NCBI GenBank assembly: GCA_018969425.1
Contig: JAGWYJ010000004.1
Span: 1 to 64,000 of the forward strand
DNA length: 64,000 nucleotides
Source of the DNA: Alphaproteobacteria bacterium
Lineage (GTDB): Bacteria > Pseudomonadota > Alphaproteobacteria > Caulobacterales > Hyphomonadaceae
Direction: 5' to 3'
Shown: piece by piece, positions 53,343 to 61,536 of the stretch
Numbering within the stretch: position 1 is the stretch's first letter
Layout: every line of letters begins with the position of its first letter
The notes under the pieces: model-generated
The model's database searches: none
What the model was told of the DNA's origin: nothing
The model's input: the letters and a program-made list of their open reading frames with translations, nothing else
Program-made: the position numbers and the translations under genes

Positions 53343-53413
53343 CTGCGCCTCCCTAAATTGACAGTTTGGGTGGCATAATATTCCATGACTCACATGTCCA
53401 GCGCCGAGGTGAA

Positions 53414-55151
53414 ATGATGCGCGAAATCATCCGAGGAGGTCTCGCCGCGGCCATCCTGTGGCTAACAGGCCTCCTGTCCGCGTTGGCGCAGGAGGAGGCG
53501 CCGATCGCTGCGGGTTGCCCCAACATCATTCTAATTCTCGTTGACGACGCTGCTTTCATGGATTTCGGCGTTTATGGCGGAGAAGCCCGCACACCCAACA
53601 TTGATCGCCTCGCCGCCTCCGGCGCGATGATGACAAACTACCATACCTCGCCCTTATGTTCGCCCTCGCGCGCCATGCTTCTGACCGGTATGGACAGCCA
53701 CCGCACGATCGTATCGACAATCGAGGAGGTCCTTCCGCCGGAATTGAAGGGCAAGCCTGGCTACACCCTTCGCCTCGAGCCTGGTGTTTCCACCATCGCG
53801 GACCGTCTCAAGGCGGAGGGTTATCGCACATTGATGTCGGGGAAATGGCACCTTGGACATGGCAAGGGGGACCTGCCCAACCATCATGGCTTCGACAGAT
53901 CACTCGCACTCGACGCTTCCGGCGCCGACAACTAGGCCGCCAAGGCCTACATGCCGCACTACAAGGACGCGCCATGGTTCGAAGACGGCGCGCCCGCAAA
54001 GCTGCCGGATGAGTTCTATTCCTCCGAACTGCTCGTCGATCTTCTGATCGAGTAGATCGACGAGGGAGATCGCAGCACTCCCTATTTCGGGTATATCGCC
54101 TTTCAGGCGGTGCACATTCCTGTCCAGGCGCCCAAGGCGTTTTCCGACCGCTATGCCAGCAGGTTCGACGCGGGGTGGGAAGCGATCCGCCGCGCACGTT
54201 GGGGTCGCGCCGTTGCATCGGGGATTGTACCAGCCGATGCGCCCTACGCCGCCATGCCGGCCGAGGCGCGTGCGTGGTCATCGCTCGGTCCTCACGACCA
54301 AGCCAAGTATGCAGGGCGTGATGGAGGTCTATTCAGGCATGATCGAGGCGATGGATCATCGTGTCGGTCGACTGATCGATCACATTGCGTCGCGTGGCGA
54401 ACTGAACAACACGGTCTTCGTCATAACGTCGGACAACGGGCCAGAGCCCAGCGATCCTGTACATGAGCCGTGGATGGATATCTGGATGTCCCTCAACGGC
54501 TATAACTGGAATCTCGAGGGCATGGGCGAACCGGGCAGCCTCGGCTTCATCGGACCTGAATAGGCCTCAGCTCTCTCGGCGCCGGGGTCGCTCTACAAGT
54601 TCTATGCCTCCGGTGGAGGCCTTCGCGTGCCGATGATCATGGCCGGGCTCGGCGTTCCGTTCGGCGAACGACATGCTGGCCTGACATTTGTCACCGATGT
54701 TACGCCGACCTTGCTGGAGCTTGCCGGCATTGGCGCAAGCGCGCCCGAAGGGGCGCGGCCCATGACCGGCCGCAGCCTTCTGCCCATTCTTACAGGCCAA
54801 GCGGACCGTATCTACGGCCCTGCAGATACCGTTGGCGTCGAGGTCTCCGGAAATGCAGCCCTGTTCAGAGATTCCTGGAAGATCGTCCGCAACGTGCCGC
54901 CGGTCGGCGACGGCGCATGGCGGCTCTACGATCACGCAAGAGACCCCGCCGAGGCAAATGATCTCTCAACAGCAATGCCAGACCTCTTCAAGTCGATGCT
55001 GGCGGAGTATGAGACCTACGCGACGCGTTCCGGGGTCCTAGCCCTTCCGGACGGCTATCAGGTCGAGCTGCAAGTTCGCCGGAACGCGATTGCGCGGCAG
55101 TTATCATTTCATGCCGGTACGCAGATCGCGGCCGGCCCGTCTTCTTTGTAG
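53414..55151 (+). pseudogene. Arylsulfatase, decayed
   Basis: The frame starts with a signal peptide (GGLAAAILWLTGLLSALAQ), then NIILILVDDAAFMDFGVYGG and the formylglycine motif LCSPSRAMLLTG (CxPSR type), then LMSGKWHLGHG. It is interrupted by TAG at 53933, 54053 and 54561 and by a +1 frameshift near 54313; beyond these, homology resumes in order (ITSDNGPEP; LYKFYASGGGLRVPMIMAGL; YDHARDPAEANDL). At least two stops sit where relatives have tryptophan. With four lesions it cannot make a normal enzyme. Confidence 0.88.
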
Positions 55152-55483
55152 CGTGTGACGGACGCGCGAAAGTTTTTTCCTGGCGAGCGCGCGGGCGCGC
55201 TGCTGCACCATGTCGGCAAGCGAGGTGCGCGGCGCCAGAGCATAGACAAGCTGGGAGTTGAGCGCCTCGGCAGCCTCGCGCAGTGTGTTAAGCGTGACCG
55301 TACCTGCAGCCTCGCCCTTCTCCAGAGCGATGATGGTGGATTGGGCAAGACCCATGCGGGCGGCGAGCTGTCGGCTCGTTATGCCAAGCGCATCGCGTAC
55401 CGCCCGCACCCAGCCACGCGGCGGGCGCGAGGGGAGACAACATCTGGCGCGGCGCCAGCTACGGACACCGGGCGCGATAACTA
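55104..55483 (-). pseudogene. Mobile mystery protein A (XRE) fragment
   Basis: The minus strand encodes SRPPRGWVRAVRDALGITSR, then QLAARMGLAQSTIIALEKGE, LNTLREAAEALNSQLVYALA and MVQQRARALARKKLSRVRHT. These match the XRE-family mobile mystery protein A, which usually pairs with a Fic-domain mystery protein B. The N-terminal ~25 and C-terminal ~20 residues are missing or frameshifted, there is no plausible start, and no partner gene is present. Confidence 0.7.
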
Positions 55484-56710
55484 GGTAGCGGCAGGGGCCA
55501 TCCCGACCGCGGCGGCGGCGATGGCGCGAAATACCGCGTTCTCTTCGGCCTCCGTCGGTGGATTGTTGGGATAGGCGGCGACCTGGGCGACGACCACGCC
55601 ACGCTTGCGATCGACCCACAGGATCTGCCCAAACGCGCCTAGGGCCATCGCCTCCCCGTCATAGTCCTTTGGCACCCACCATTGCATGGCGTAGCCGCGC
55701 GGCCTTTCGCCAGGCTCCTGAAAGTCCGCCTGCGGCCGCATGACGAGGTCGGCCCAACCCGCTGGCGCAAGCCGATCGCCGGCAACCTGAAGATCGTCCA
55801 GATAGAGCTGCCCGAGATGAGCGAAATCCTGCAGCGTCGCCTGCAGGCAACAATGCCCGAACTGGACGCCGGCCTCGCCGTCCGCGTGTTTCGACCAGGT
55901 GGCGGCACCTGCGAAGCCTCCCGGACTCCAGAGCTTCTGCTGCACTATGTCGTAATAGCGCTGCCCGTAGGCGCCACGAAGAACCGCCGACAGTACATGC
56001 GTGTCCGTAGCGAGGTAGTTGAAATCCGTGCCGGACGCGACCCGCGCACCCAGGCCCGCGGCGAAATCATCGAGATTCTCGCCCTGGAAGGCGAGACGGA
56101 CATACATGTCGTTCCGATTGGGCCGGCCGCTATCGTGGAAAAACTCCACGCCGGACGACATCATCGCCACATGCCGGATCGGCACACCCCCATATGCCGT
56201 TCCCCTGAATTGCGGTGCGTATTTCTGTACGGGATCATCGAGGTTCGCGACCACGCCGTCCCTCAAAGCCGCTCCAAGGACAGTCACAGTGAAGCTCTTC
56301 GAAGCCGACCATAGTGAATGGCGCGTGTCCGGCGTAAGACCGTTGCGGTAGACTTCAAAGACTACGCGCCCGCCATGCAGGACCAACAGACCATCGACAT
56401 TCGCGCGCTCCAGATAGTCCCCGACTGTGCGCGTCTCGTCCGCATATCCGTAGCGAACGGTCTCCAGCGGCCGCAGCGTACGCAGATAGGTGCGGGGGGA
56501 GGCGGATGAATGAAGCTGATCCACCGGCCAGATCTTCTCGTAGTGCGTGAAGATCCAAGTACGGGTGGACGGGATCGCGTTGAGAAACCAGTATCCGGGC
56601 GCATGGTCCGCCCACGGTCGGAACAGGAACAGGATGAGCGCCACCATCAGGGCGAGGAGCGCAAGTCCCCCTATCGTAAGGATACGCAACACCGGCCGCA
56701 TGCTTCGCAC
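55481..56710 (-). CDS. Serine hydrolase, class C beta-lactamase/6-aminohexanoate-dimer hydrolase-like
   Basis: The 409-residue protein has an N-terminal membrane segment (ILTIGGLALLALMVALILFL), so it is probably anchored with its domain in the periplasm. SLWSASKSFTVTVLG holds the nucleophilic S-x-x-K, and FNYLATDTHVLSAVL supplies the Y-x-x equivalent (Y-L-A). It resembles NylB-type and esterase members more than true beta-lactamases. It is last in the selenoprotein operon, 2 bases after the MFS gene, and ends in TAG. Confidence 0.87.
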   Translation of the reverse strand: MRSMRPVLRILTIGGLALLALMVALILFLFRPWADHAPGYWFLNAIPSTRTWIFTHYEKIWPVDQLHSSASPRTYLRTLRPLETVRYGYADETRTVGDYLERANVDGLLVLHGGRVVFEVYRNGLTPDTRHSLWSASKSFTVTVLGAALRDGVVANLDDPVQKYAPQFRGTAYGGVPIRHVAMMSSGVEFFHDSGRPNRNDMYVRLAFQGENLDDFAAGLGARVASGTDFNYLATDTHVLSAVLRGAYGQRYYDIVQQKLWSPGGFAGAATWSKHADGEAGVQFGHCCLQATLQDFAHLGQLYLDDLQVAGDRLAPAGWADLVMRPQADFQEPGERPRGYAMQWWVPKDYDGEAMALGAFGQILWVDRKRGVVVAQVAAYPNNPPTEAEENAVFRAIAAAAVGMAPAAT

Positions 56711-56712
56711 CC

Positions 56713-58014
56713 TCAGTCCTCCTTTGCAGCTTCAATCCCCGCTGCCATGTTACGCCCGCACAGGAAGAAATGCAGCGCGCTCCAGAAACCGAGGACATGG
56801 ATTGAGAGCAGCGCGTACCGTAGCGAGTCGTCGCCGACGGCGGGCTTGAGCGCGTCGCTCACGGCACCCACGATCAATGGACCGCAGCTGAGCCCCACCA
56901 GGTTCATGATCAGCATCTTCACGGCGGCGGAGATCGCTCGCATGCGCAAGGGCGCCAGGGTCTGTATCAGCGCCAGCGACGGGCCCAGAAAGAAGTTGCC
57001 GAAGAATACCGGCACAACCAGCCACGCCAGCGCCAGGGCCGGCGAGCCTGCAAGGTAGGCGACCGCGGTGAAGGGCAGCGAGATAAGCTGCACGACACCG
57101 ATCATCCAGACCCCCCATGCGGGATTGCGGGTCTGCAGCTTGTCGGTCAGCCAGCCGCCCGTGACCGCGCCGACGCCGCCGACGACGCCAAGCAGCCCCG
57201 CTAGCAGAAACCCTGTTTCCATTTGCGAGAGCTGGTGGATGCGCGCGAAAAAGGCCGGCTGGAACGCCGAAACGCCGTAGGTCACCGTCGCCGAAAGCGT
57301 TGATGCAAGGATGATGTGGCGCATTGCGAGGCTGCCCCACAAGTAGCCAAGCGACTTACGCAGCGGGGGAGGTGTAGCGGCCGCCCGCCGGTTCTCCGAA
57401 AAGCCGCGGGGCGCTTCCTTGAGGGCCGCTGCCATGACAAGCGCCAGCAGAATCCCTGGAAAGCCGACAACAAAAAGCGCCGTCCGCCAACCATAGAGCT
57501 GGCTGACCACGCCTCCTGCGACCAGAGCCAGCAGCATGCCCACGTTCGCGCCCATTGCGAGAACCGACAATGCGGAGGAGCGCTTCTCCGGCGGATAGTA
57601 GTCGGCGAGAATGGAGTGACTGGAGGGATTGACCCCCGCCTCGCCAATGCCGACCCCGAAGCGCGCCAGCGCCAGCTGCCAGAAATTCTGGGCAAGGCCG
57701 GTCAGGAACGTCATTCCAGAAAAAATCGCCAGCGACCAGACGACGATACGCTTGCGATTGCCGCGGTCGGCGATCAGCGCGAGTGGAATGCCAAGCGTGG
57801 CATAGAACATAGCAAATGCGAAGCCGCTCAGCAGCGCAAGGGATGTGTCGGATAGGTTGAATTCCTTGCGTATGGGCTCCGCAAGAATAGACAGGATCTG
57901 TCGGTCGAGGATGGACAGCGCAAAGGCGAGAAAAAAAAGCAGGAGCGCGGTTCGCCGTTCGCGCAGGAATGCGATCGACTGGAGTGGGCGGCCGGTTTGC
58001 GTTGAAGGGGTCAT
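56713..58014 (-). CDS. MFS transporter
   Basis: The 433-residue permease has 12 predicted hydrophobic segments and major-facilitator signatures ILDRQILSILAEPIRKEFNL and ADRGNRKRIVVWSLAIF (loop 2-3), and ALARFGVGIGEAGVNPSSHS, typical of the spinster-like/aromatic-acid MFS group. ATG 58014 overlaps the TauD stop by 4 bases (ATGA). It likely moves the substrate or a product of the operon's enzymes across the inner membrane. Confidence 0.92.
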   Translation of the reverse strand: MTPSTQTGRPLQSIAFLRERRTALLLFFLAFALSILDRQILSILAEPIRKEFNLSDTSLALLSGFAFAMFYATLGIPLALIADRGNRKRIVVWSLAIFSGMTFLTGLAQNFWQLALARFGVGIGEAGVNPSSHSILADYYPPEKRSSALSVLAMGANVGMLLALVAGGVVSQLYGWRTALFVVGFPGILLALVMAAALKEAPRGFSENRRAAATPPPLRKSLGYLWGSLAMRHIILASTLSATVTYGVSAFQPAFFARIHQLSQMETGFLLAGLLGVVGGVGAVTGGWLTDKLQTRNPAWGVWMIGVVQLISLPFTAVAYLAGSPALALAWLVVPVFFGNFFLGPSLALIQTLAPLRMRAISAAVKMLIMNLVGLSCGPLIVGAVSDALKPAVGDDSLRYALLSIHVLGFWSALHFFLCGRNMAAGIEAAKED

Positions 58015-58862
58015 GCCGCCGCCCGCGCCAGAACCTGGCACCTGCGCATCAGACGGCGGTGGCGGTCGTCGAACTCGTCTCGACGGTGCAGCACGGTGCG
58101 GTTGTCCCAGACGATGACATCCCCGATCTCCCAGATATGGCGCCAGACAAGATGCCCGGGAGCCGCATAACTCCAGACCTCGTCCAGGAGGCGCTCGCTC
58201 TCCTCCAGAGACAGACCGACGACGTACGCCCAGTCGCGCCGCCCGAGAAACAGCGCCTTACGGCCTGATTCCGGGTGCGTGATGACCGCGGGATGGACGG
58301 CCCCAGGCGCCTCAACCGGCGAAGCGGGTTCGCTGTATCCCGCCCGCAGCTCGCCGATGCTAGTGTGCGAGGCGTCGTGCTTGATCGAAATCGTCTCCAC
58401 GCGCGCTCTGAGGTCCGTCGGCATGGCCTGAAAGGCGGCGTGCTGATTCACAAAATAGGTGTCGCCGCCCTGCGGGGGAATCTCCACGGAATATAGCACG
58501 CTCGCGGTCGGCGGCGTCGGGTTGTAGGTCATGTCGGAGTGCCATGAGGCCTCCGCATTGCCGAGTCCGCCAATTGGGCGGCCGTCTTCCTTGATGTTCG
58601 ATATGACCGTGACAAACCGGCTGTCGAGTCGATCGCGCAAGGCCTCCGGCAGGCGGGAGTATCCTGGCATCTCTTCGAGGGGGCCAAAGCGGGCGCTGAA
58701 TGCCTGCAACTGGTTAACGTCCAGCTTCTGGCCGCGCATGCGGATGACGCCGTGATCGAGCCATGCAGCGTAGATCGCTGCGAACTCCGCTTCCGACAGG
58801 TTGGTGAGATCGACCCCCGAGATGTCGGCGCCAGTGTGGGAAGTGAGGGGCGTAATTTTCAT
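58011..58862 (-). CDS. TauD/TfdA-family alpha-ketoglutarate dioxygenase
   Basis: The 283-residue Fe(II)/2-oxoglutarate dioxygenase starts MKITPLTSHTGADISGVDLT, with the iron-binding H-x-D in ASWHSDMTYNPTPP and the distal histidine in DNRTVLHRRDEF, followed by the 2-oxoglutarate arginine in LMRRCQVLA. Members cleave taurine, 2,4-D or alkyl sulfates by hydroxylation. It lies 13 bases after the selenoprotein gene and overlaps the MFS gene, so all are co-transcribed. ATG 58862 has GAGGAAGC upstream. Confidence 0.93.
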   Translation of the reverse strand: MKITPLTSHTGADISGVDLTNLSEAEFAAIYAAWLDHGVIRMRGQKLDVNQLQAFSARFGPLEEMPGYSRLPEALRDRLDSRFVTVISNIKEDGRPIGGLGNAEASWHSDMTYNPTPPTASVLYSVEIPPQGGDTYFVNQHAAFQAMPTDLRARVETISIKHDASHTSIGELRAGYSEPASPVEAPGAVHPAVITHPESGRKALFLGRRDWAYVVGLSLEESERLLDEVWSYAAPGHLVWRHIWEIGDVIVWDNRTVLHRRDEFDDRHRRLMRRCQVLARAAA

Positions 58863-58875
58863 TGTGCTTCCTCGC

Positions 58876-60081
58876 TCAATCCTCGATGGCGTAGCGCGGG
58901 GCAAGCGCACGCGCGAAAGCAATGAGAAGTGGATTGCCGCTTCCTGCGAAAGCGCCATGGATCGCCAGCATGGCGCGGCCCAGCTCGGTCTCGCGCCAGA
59001 GCAGGCGGTTGATCCGGTCGGGCGGATAGTCGCCCGGCTGGGCCGTCATCCCCTCAAGCCAGTAGACCTTTAGATCCTCCAGCGCGTGCTTGAGCGCCTT
59101 GAGGTCCCCAACAGTCGCCGCGCCGGCGTCCGCTGCTTCGCCGACCTTGCGCGCGAGGTCCTCGACCGGCGCCTTTGCGGCGCCGAACGACGTGCGCTTG
59201 CGACGACGTAGGGAGAGTTCGTACCAAGGTCGAATCATCAACAACTCGTTTGCAAGACGGGAAGTCCAGGTCAAAGGAGCGGCATCCGGAACGGCAAAAT
59301 TGACCGGACAGAACACCCCGTCCGCCTCCGCTGCGTTCGAAGGAGCCGGCGCCATAGGCGCGTCCTCGGGAAAGTCTTCAAGCACCGGACCCTCAGGACG
59401 GTTCAGCAGGTCAAGCGCCGCAAGGATGACGCGACGCTGGAACGCAGCGTCATTGGGTTTGCCCAGGGGCCGGCCCAGCGCAAAGCTTGTCCAGAGAAAG
59501 CGCGGGGGCTTCAGCGCTTCCGTGTTTTCGCGGACTAAGCTGATGCCGGTGGTCTGCACGCCCTCGCTCTCAAGATAGTAGGCAATCGCGCATACTGCGC
59601 GGGTGCAATTGGGTCAGACGGGAGTTAGGAAGGCAGTATCGACATGGTCGCGCTTCAGAAGTCCGGCCAGGTGGCGAACGCTAGCCTCATAGGCCTGCGG
59701 TAGCAGCAAGGCCCCCATGAAGCTCACGTGCTGGCTCGCAAGCGAGCCAAGGGAGCCCTCATCAGCCAGCTCGCGAAAACGGTCGATGGGGAGGACAGTG
59801 TTGACGTCCTCGAGGAACCCGGTGCGGTCGAAATTGGCCGAGGTGTGCGACATCACCAACTCGTCTCCCCTGAGATCACCGGGAATCAGCCTGTAGCTGG
59901 CGTCCGTCAGCTCGAAAGCTTCGTCGTCACGCACATGCAGCCCGGCCGTAGTGATCAGCACGACGCGGCGCCTGTTCATGGGGAGGTCGGCGCGGACGAA
60001 CGGGGTGGGGCCAAGCGGCTCCATCGCTTTGGCGCGGAGGTGCGCCCGTTCAAACTCCGGCAGGTCCGAAAGTCGAACCAT
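58876..60081 (-). CDS. GrdB/PrdB-family selenoprotein with in-frame UGA
   Basis: This is a 401-residue product if UGA 59616-59614 is read as selenocysteine 156. Both flanking frames are the same and translation continues: AFLTPV-U-PNCTRAVCAIAY, with Cys159 making a U-x-x-C redox motif. The two halves are MVRLSDLPEFERAHLRAKAM and VQTTGISLVRENTEALKPPR, typical of the glycine/sarcosine/betaine/proline reductase selenoprotein B family, whose relatives have Cys or Sec at this position. AAAGGAGG lies 6 bases before ATG 60081. A stem-loop 12 nt after the UGA suits a bacterial SECIS. First gene of an operon with TauD, MFS and serine hydrolase, downstream of a shared operator. Confidence 0.85.
59587..59601 (-). 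promoter_or_regulatory. Candidate bacterial SECIS hairpin
   Basis: On the coding strand, CGCGCA-GUA-UGCGCG is a perfect 6-bp stem with a 3-base loop, beginning 12 nt after the UGA. Flanking CAAU (59611-59608) and AUUG (59586-59583) could extend it with an internal bulge. Bacterial SECIS elements lie within about 40 nt of the UGA with a G/U in the apical loop, so position and form fit. Confidence 0.6.
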
Positions 60082-60125
60082 ATCGCCCTCCTTTGGTCGC
60101 AGCGAGGAATAAAGAACCATCGCTT

Positions 60126-60144
60126 ATTGCACTAGGAGTGTCAA
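60126..60144. promoter_or_regulatory. Operator of the selenoprotein operon, match to 51013 site
   Basis: On the coding strand the site reads TTGACACTCCTAGTGCAATA. The dehalogenase operator reads TGACACTTAGAGTGTCAATA. Aligned in one orientation they share TGACACT-N3-AGTG-(T)-CAATAA, with one base missing in the right arm here. It sits 45-63 bases before ATG 60081. Confidence 0.6.
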
Positions 60145-60213
60145 TAGTAGAAGCGCTAAGCATCTGCCGGCTACATGCCGATCACTTTTATGGTCCTTCG
60201 CCAATTGGTTATC

Positions 60214-61158
60214 TGAACCGCCCCGGTAACCCCGGAGGCTATTTGGTTTGAGACAGGCTGAGACGGCTTGGTTCTCCATTACAGCATAGTAGACGGCTTC
60301 GGCCTCGGCAGGCGGGATGTTGCCGATGGGCTCCAGCAGCCGGCGATTGTTGTACCAGTCGACCCATTCGAGCGTGGCGTACTCGACGGCATCGAGAGAT
60401 CGCCACGACCCCTTCCGCCAAATCACCTCAGCCTTGTAGAGTCCGCGGATCGTCTCAGCGAGAGCATTGTCATAGCTGTCGCCGACACTGCCGACGGACG
60501 GTTCAAGCCCGGCTTCGGCCAGGCGCTCGGTGTATTTTATCGACACCTATTGCGACCCCCTGTCGCTGTGATGAACGAGGCCGCCGCCGGAGAGCGGCCG
60601 GCAATCATGCAACGCCCGCTCGAGCGCATCGAGGACGAAGCCCGCGTGCGCCAAGCGTGAGACGCGCTAGCCGACGATGCGGCGAGCGTAGACGTCGATG
60701 ACGAAGGCTACGTAGACGAAGCCCGACCAGGTGGCGACGTAGGTGAAGTCGGAGACCCAGAGCGTGTTCGGCGCCAGCGCATTGAAGTTGCGGTTCACAC
60801 GATCAAGCAGGCAAGGCGCCGCCCTGTAGCTGAACGTCGTTCGATGCGGCTTGCCACGGATGACGCCCTTGAGTCCCATAGCCTTCATCAGCCTTGAGAC
60901 CGTGCAGCGGGCGATGTCGAAGCCTTCGCGCTTCAGCTGCCGCCAGACCTTGCGAGCCCCAAAGACCTGGAAGTTCTCGGAGAAGACTCGCAGCACGTGC
61001 GGCTTCAGCGCTGCGTCACGCTGGATCCGCGGCGGCGCTGTCTCCGGCCGCGCTCGTCGTGCCGCGTGCGCATGGAAGATGGACGGAGCGATCTTCAGCA
61101 CCCTGCAGATCGGCTCGACCCCGTACTCACCCCGGTGATCATCAATGAAGGCGATCAT
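60214..61158 (-). pseudogene. IS3 transposase OrfB with two amber stops
   Basis: The frame from 61158 contains the HTH_21-like and DDE domains: FGARKVWRQLKREGFDIARC, LWVSDFTYVATWSG (first Asp), HHSDRGSQ (second Asp) and DSYDNALAETIRGLYK (Glu). It is broken by TAG at 60669-60667 (in IVG-stop-RVS, tryptophan in relatives) and TAG at 60549-60547 (in RGSQ-stop-VSIKY, tyrosine in relatives). The open frame runs past the IS end to 60124. Confidence 0.85.
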
Positions 61159-61486
61159 GACTTGAACCGGCGGTCGAGCTGCGCCTGGGCAAAATATACG
61201 CGCTGGCCTTACGCAGGATCTCGTTGGCCTGACGCAGCTCGCGGTTCTCGCGCTCCAGCGCCTTCATCCGCTCGCGCTCTTCGGACGAAAGACCAGCCCG
61301 TGTACCGGTGTCGCGCTCGGCTTGCGCCACCCATTTGTGCAGCGTCTGCGCCGAACACCCGATCTTGGCTGCGATCGACATAATCGCCGCCCACTGCGAG
61401 GCGTGCTCGGCCCCATGCTTTATCGCCATCCGGACCGCTCGCTCGCGGACCTCAGGCGAGCACTTCGCCGTATGCTTCTTGCTCAT
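61142..61486 (-). CDS. IS3 transposase OrfA
   Basis: The 114-residue protein shows [40 protein letters not shown] (helix-turn-helix) and [20 protein letters not shown] (zipper), typical of IS3-family OrfA in the IS51/IS2-like branch. It overlaps the start of orfB by 17 bases, as expected for the -1 frameshifting arrangement. The gene is intact. Confidence 0.9.
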
Positions 61487-61536
61487 GGCTCCAGTCTCTC
61501 AAAGAGTTCGGCCTCCGACAAACCCGGGGCGGTTCA

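Follow-up and report, generated by a model that had tools for sequence, protein, structure and literature searches.

A putative two-domain, PrdB-like selenoprotein of Alphaproteobacteria encoded beside a TauD-family dioxygenase

Gene arrangement at the locus

The window analysed here is the whole 64,000-nucleotide stretch of an alphaproteobacterial contig (JAGWYJ010000004.1). In keeping with this class, the 12 best matches listed for RelA/SpoT and the 12 for IMPDH among plasmid records (88 and 242 further records matched) are all alphaproteobacterial; a search for 16S, which also missed 5 of 14 controls, found none. Its minus-strand frame 60081–58876 comprises 401 codons, and the sole internal stop is an in-frame TGA (Table 1). 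The frame opens with an ATG at 60081, just 3' of a Shine–Dalgarno-like AAAGGAGGG, and closes with a terminal TGA at 58878–58876. Translation with genetic code 11 yields two ORFs, one at 60120–59614 (168 aa) and one at 59559–58876 (227 aa). The preliminary description had taken these for one selenoprotein read as two ORFs, with the UGA in a U-x-x-C motif. This reading holds; the coordinates and the motif (UPNC) are exact, and no other stop occurs in the 401 codons. Standard ORF calling splits the gene in two and probably does so in other genomes as well. A scan of 59980–60700 for promoters and terminators found none.

Table 1. Features of the selenoprotein locus, in window positions
Feature	Position	Strand	Remarks
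Selenoprotein gene (putative)	58876..60081	(-)	N-terminal PrdB-like domain, ~residues 14-226; C-terminal domain, ~236-401
In-frame TGA, Sec156	59614..59616	(-)	codon 156; context LTPV-U-PNCTRAV (motif P-V-U-P-N-C-T-R-A-V; VUPNC)
Bacterial SECIS-like hairpin	59582..59606	(-)	6-bp upper stem, apical loop GUA, -12.5 kcal/mol
C-terminal domain	58879..59376	(-)	~165 residues, without Pfam match
TauD/TfdA-family dioxygenase	58011..58862	(-)	starts 13 nt past the selenoprotein stop
MFS transporter	56713..58041	(-)	relative directly upstream of the Cys form at locus L076
Serine hydrolase, beta-lactamase fold	55481..56710	(-)	without a relative near the other 36 loci
Sulfatase in three ORFs	53366..55151	(+)	53366-53935, 54153-54563, 54627-55151

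The genes for the TauD-family dioxygenase, the MFS transporter and the serine hydrolase run downstream of the selenoprotein gene on the same strand, as had been described. The best-matching piece of the broken sulfatase shares 61.5% identity with the sulfatase found near the Cys form at locus L075. About 130 bp upstream of the selenoprotein gene lies an IS element (60214–61536), which we take to be IS3-like; its transposase reading frame is split, its terminal inverted repeats are imperfect and 26 bp long, and it contains an ALIL pseudoknot (61084–61200).

Recoding of the in-frame TGA

The search for relatives covered a draw of 385 genomes from the class and returned 36 full-length members in 33 genomes, the window's own included; at most four candidates were scored per genome, here as in the phylum draw and the class-wide selA search described below, and the absences in all three are bounded accordingly. 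One more locus, L016, from a Pseudomonadales MAG, was found separately as the only locus from a short-peptide-pattern scan of genome contigs (1 of 29 stretches), bringing the total to 37. Four rows need a remark: L101 is cut by the end of its contig, an additional TAG occurs in L102, the start of L103 is shifted, and that of L078 was trimmed.

At the column of codon 156, TGA is found in 34 of the 37 full-length relatives and a Cys codon in the other three (two TGT and one TGC), in agreement with the earlier expectation of cysteine in non-Sec relatives. In an alignment of 27 of the 37 members, the following positions are invariant: P154, the Sec/Cys column 156 itself, P157, C159 and T160 and, in the C-terminal part, E279, D336 and T365. 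The window protein is identical to L016 at 85 of 154 positions before the UGA, at 55 of 79 just after it and at 67 of 154 in the C-terminal part. Since the identity continues past the UGA, the downstream part is conserved as protein. In a tree of 40 rows, rooted at the midpoint only, the three Cys proteins (L075–L077) form a single clade (95/96) nested inside the full-length Sec proteins, so that Cys most simply replaced Sec once. Together with the window protein and L016 they make up a five-member subclade (86/100), the branch of which was not starred by the tree tool.

The hairpin behind the UGA, whose loop begins 18 nt past that codon, satisfies the published bacterial SECIS model as quoted in the available text of PMC13188914, namely, a loop of 3–9 nt with G in the first two positions, a stem of 4–16 bp, a distance of 16–37 nt from the UGA and an MFE of at most -7.5. 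In our own implementation, the model was satisfied by 30 of the 34 Sec genes, with four failing, and by one of the three Cys genes; as a control, 2082 of 13187 other in-frame sites in the same 37 genes (15.8%) also satisfied it. The loop letters G-T are invariant in all 34 Sec genes, and Val163, which they encode, is replaced in the Cys proteins, twice by Thr and once by Ala. Such variability is expected if it is the RNA, not the protein, that needs the loop letters; the loss of Val163 in the three proteins may be a single event, since they form one clade. Against the hairpin, its stability across the family does not exceed that of dinucleotide shuffles (mean z -0.18 for 34 Sec genes; -1.9 for the window alone). 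Covariation in the stem is thin: 77.1% of the cells are paired, against 25–51% when the partner is slid, and only four cells, in two pairs, have changes on both sides.

A search of the window's assembly for selC, selA, selB and selD, the check proposed in the preliminary description, found all four. The tRNA-Sec gene (C19:664–754) scores 76.1 bits, over the cut-off, and ARAGORN assigns it the anticodon tca; selB (304.7 bits) and selA (532.7 bits), which adjoin it on C19, and selD (426.4 bits), on the window's own contig (C9:71374–72303), are each above their cut-offs. The stretch C9:71239–73569 of this genome, G000 (L018:11239–13569), holds selD and, adjoining it, a 353-aa ORF that, judged by eye, is presumably mnmH/ybbB, encoding a tRNA 2-selenouridine synthase; perhaps the genome thus has a second use for selenium. 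Across the class draw, selA is present in 29 of the 30 Sec-form genomes, in none of the three Cys-form genomes and in 27 of the 352 others (Fisher p = 6e-27 for 29/30 versus 27/355). No selA was found in G322, a Sec-form genome rated 100% complete, in which the gene copy (C98, L107) lies on a 5,967-base contig. Among 61 genomes, the window's own and 60 near relatives, selA exceeded the cut-off in six, including four of the 15 that belong to the genus. Outside the subclade, 13 of 32 loci have a selA, selB or selD match (tblastn) within the fetched stretch, i.e., at most ~10 kb on each side; the selenoprotein gene is near a selD match at 10 loci, selA at nine and selB at 10. Some of the selD neighbours are long and, by eye, resemble what we take to be Ndh-SelD fusions. 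Fusions of this kind are described in the GOS paper (PMC2398784, available text).

Two other accounts of the TGA can be weighed against these data. It might be a nonsense mutation, a sequencing error or a mark of gene decay, in line with the broken sulfatase ~4 kb away and the transposase split over frames just upstream. However, the same TGA recurs in 33 other loci, which are related and not independent, and the remaining three have Cys; moreover, the protein is conserved downstream of the UGA and the gene co-occurs with selA. On the TGA/Cys column and the selA co-occurrence we rejected this account, which we consider extremely improbable. Alternatively, the TGA could be read as another amino acid, by ordinary readthrough or through a reassigned codon, and an open frame by itself cannot tell this from selenocysteine insertion. 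Yet the gene ends on a TGA of its own, the aligned residue is Cys in three relatives and a tRNA-Sec is present, leaving this account a vanishingly small probability.

We therefore hold with high confidence, as judged from sequence, that 60081–58876 is one genuine selenoprotein gene with a recoded UGA. In the cell, SelD would make selenophosphate, SelA would charge tRNA-Sec, and SelB on the hairpin behind codon 156 would read the UGA as selenocysteine, giving a predicted 401-residue protein of two domains.

Family identity, domains and distribution

The preliminary description had assigned the protein to the GrdB/PrdB family. Membership of the superfamily stands, but membership of PrdB or GrdB in the strict sense does not: the scores fall well short of the equivalog cut-offs, PrdA was not found and the protein has an extra C-terminal domain. 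Residues 14–226 match the PrdB model TIGR04483 with 105.7 bits (E 2.5e-30), where the cut-off is 300; four of the 36 relatives were scanned as well and score 108–131 bits, and a true PrdB used for comparison scores 423.7. The GrdB model TIGR01917 gives 27.3 bits versus a cut-off of 602. Pfam GRDB is passed narrowly by the window protein (25.3 versus 22, over 73 residues) and matches at E 0.01 or better in all 27 members scanned (of 37). At E 0.001, none of the 33 genomes carrying the selenoprotein gene gave a match to the PrdA proprotein, in a search that did find the positive control, the Terrisporobacter record W01, at 976.8 bits. A PrdA protein gives only a weak match to the GrdG model.

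The C-terminal domain had no Pfam family match in the 24 members scanned (of 37; best E 0.08). Its profile matches 33 of the 385 genomes, the identical set to that of the full-length gene, with at most nine candidates scored per genome and absence elsewhere bounded to that extent. Of its 37 match rows, 36 lie inside the long genes; the other belongs to G338, where a separate contig holds a tail fragment that apparently stems from the copy cut by a contig end. As far as searched, the domain appears to be specific to this selenoprotein family. AlphaFold2 with two sequences gave a mean pLDDT of 46, too low for a usable model, and sequence searches of the PDB found no relative, with one ribosomal-protein match at E 0.34.

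These data bear on whether the protein is a D-proline reductase (PrdB) or a component B of glycine reductase in the strict sense. It resembles PrdB, the Sec subunit of D-proline reductase, in its N-terminal domain, in the Sec of a U-x-x-C motif and in its dependence on the sel genes, and TIGR04483 is its best curated match, besides the narrow pass of Pfam GRDB. However, PrdB has ~240 aa and no C-terminal domain, and is encoded with PrdA. The neighbouring TauD, as a member of its family, needs O2, which also speaks against a strict PrdB or GrdB. Strict membership was thus rejected on the scores and the absent PrdA, and we regard it as very unlikely, even though the available text of the Sargasso Sea paper gives its own PrdB family a role in D-proline reduction (PMC1088965).

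Several other known groups share part of these features. "Proline reductase PrdB" selenoproteins with the motif UxxC number 42 in the Sargasso Sea data (PMC1088965) and 235 in the GOS data (PMC2398784), and proline reductase makes up 6.4% of selenoprotein genes in the available text of a 2021 GOS paper (PMC9402790). Like the window family, these ocean proteins have U-x-x-C, a match to pfam07355 (GOS) and a Sec form commoner than the Cys form; they differ by description, in that the available accounts name them proline reductases (with that role in the Sargasso paper) and give no second domain, TauD link or host. GrdB and FarB, the glycine/betaine/sarcosine and proposed fluoroacetate reductases, share a homologous Sec-bearing region, with Sec acting on a substituted carboxylate. 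Unlike the window protein, they work with an alpha subunit (GrdE/FarE) and, in the sources as available, occur in anaerobes. GrdB models have ~430 positions, and the window protein matches their C-terminal end. Proteins of Roseomonas and Haematobacter (302 and 308 aa), already annotated as "glycine/sarcosine/betaine reductase selenoprotein B family protein", belong to the same superfamily and likewise come from Alphaproteobacteria, but they are short, have no in-frame stop and form a separate tree branch.

As to earlier records of selenoproteins, in the available texts a 2006 survey lists FdhA as the sole selenoprotein in Alphaproteobacteria (PMC1794560), a 2016 genome paper states that no sphingomonad sequenced by then had selenoproteins (PMC4741004), a 2025 paper gives three known selenoprotein genes for Afipia carboxidovorans (PMC12013277), and a 2026 review describes selenoproteins as rarely kept by aerobic bacteria (PMC13188914). 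Our literature search, which covered open-access papers and a minority of subscription papers, found no description of the two-domain architecture or of a selenoprotein/TauD pair in the texts available. UxxC selenoproteins under the name PrdB are known; what appears to be new is a PrdB-like family that has a second domain of its own, a patchy spread over the class and one subclade tied to TauD and a sulfatase.

Among the 61 genomes comprising the window's own and its 60 near relatives, only the former has the gene. Matches turned up in 16 of 398 genomes drawn from the phylum, full length in the window's own genome only and confined to the PrdB domain in the rest. The distribution of the long form is thus patchy. 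The copy in the Pseudomonadales MAG (L016) has the same TauD neighbour, which suggests transfer of the selenoprotein/TauD gene pair. A scan of viral contigs for the gene found none. The class search also returned one fragment and 49 shorter matches. The latter are proteins with the PrdB domain; many of their genes contain an in-frame TGA, and some genomes have more than one of them.

Gene neighbours and a possible reaction

By tblastn against the fetched stretches, a TauD match is near all five members of the subclade and none of the other 32 loci, and the same holds for the sulfatase (five of five, the four nearest relatives included, and 0 of 32). The absences are bounded, as several stretches are short or stop where the contig does. 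The TauD match begins at most 17 nt from the end of the selenoprotein gene, or overlaps it, in four of the five subclade loci, and Sec and Cys forms share this neighbour. Of the window's other neighbours, the MFS transporter has a relative in one of the four other subclade loci and the serine hydrolase in none. The preliminary description had called the setting unusual; it is not a one-off, in view of TauD and sulfatase neighbours throughout the subclade and of the full-length family in 33 of 385 genomes. Further neighbours that came from greedy heuristic gene calls and were read by eye are presumably genes of a CoA transferase, an acyl-CoA dehydrogenase and an enoyl-CoA hydratase. Three loci of another subclade (L085, L094 and L095) have the selenoprotein gene flanked by a glutathione S-transferase gene directly upstream and, on the opposite strand, by a long SelD-bearing gene directly downstream.

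The protein could be a selenoprotein and yet serve as a general thiol/selenol redox or detoxification enzyme, reducing disulfides, peroxides or glutathione conjugates. Its profile matches are of the PrdB/GrdB type, apart from a weak UGSC match, and TauD, the sulfatase and the genes read by eye point to catabolism, which argues against such a role. In its favour, besides the three loci just mentioned, a fourth has a glutathione S-transferase gene at a distance of ~4 kb, and one is also found near two Cys-form loci. U-x-x-C is, furthermore, a motif of thioredoxin-like selenoproteins as well (PMC2398784, available text). We consider a general redox role possible but rather unlikely.

We tentatively favour, by analogy and with less than even confidence, a reductive C–X cleavage carried out without a pyruvoyl partner, in the same catabolic route as TauD and the sulfatase. 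The Sec/Cys mechanism of such a reaction has its basis in the chemistry of PrdB and GrdB, which is established for those families, and the first domain retains their nucleophile and resolving Cys as U156 and C159. Sec156 would attack the carbon that lies next to a carbonyl and bears the leaving group; C159 would free the reduced product, leaving a selenenylsulfide, and a cellular thiol would then recycle the enzyme. As there is no pyruvoyl subunit, the substrate would be activated by its own carbonyl or bound by the C-terminal domain. TauD family dioxygenases depend on 2-oxoglutarate and O2, and since the neighbouring enzyme uses O2, the pathway probably operates under aerobic or nearly aerobic conditions. 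A GrdB-like selenoprotein, encoded by farB with farE, has been proposed to cleave the C–F bond of fluoroacetate on the basis of transcription, comparative genomics and degradation tests (PMC10838667, available text), and so sets a precedent for leaving groups other than amines. One reaction shared by the whole family is not certain, since the neighbours differ between subclades.

On a more far-reaching reading, the family may constitute a separate enzyme class. Its members would be selenol reductases that are compatible with oxygen and consist of a single polypeptide, the new C-terminal domain taking the place of the pyruvoyl partner of the anaerobic enzymes, and they would occur in Alphaproteobacteria and in at least one further lineage of Pseudomonadota; in the TauD subclade, the enzyme would act in series with the dioxygenase and the sulfatase on one sulfated organic compound. 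We advance this proposal, too, as a tentative one. In the ocean surveys, as far as their available texts go, the PrdB family is among the commoner selenoproteins and is named after the anaerobic proline reductase. For the window family there are host genomes to work with, the protein has two domains, Sec and Cys forms occur beside the same TauD, and PrdA was not found; with these features the role of PrdB-like proteins outside proline fermentation becomes testable.
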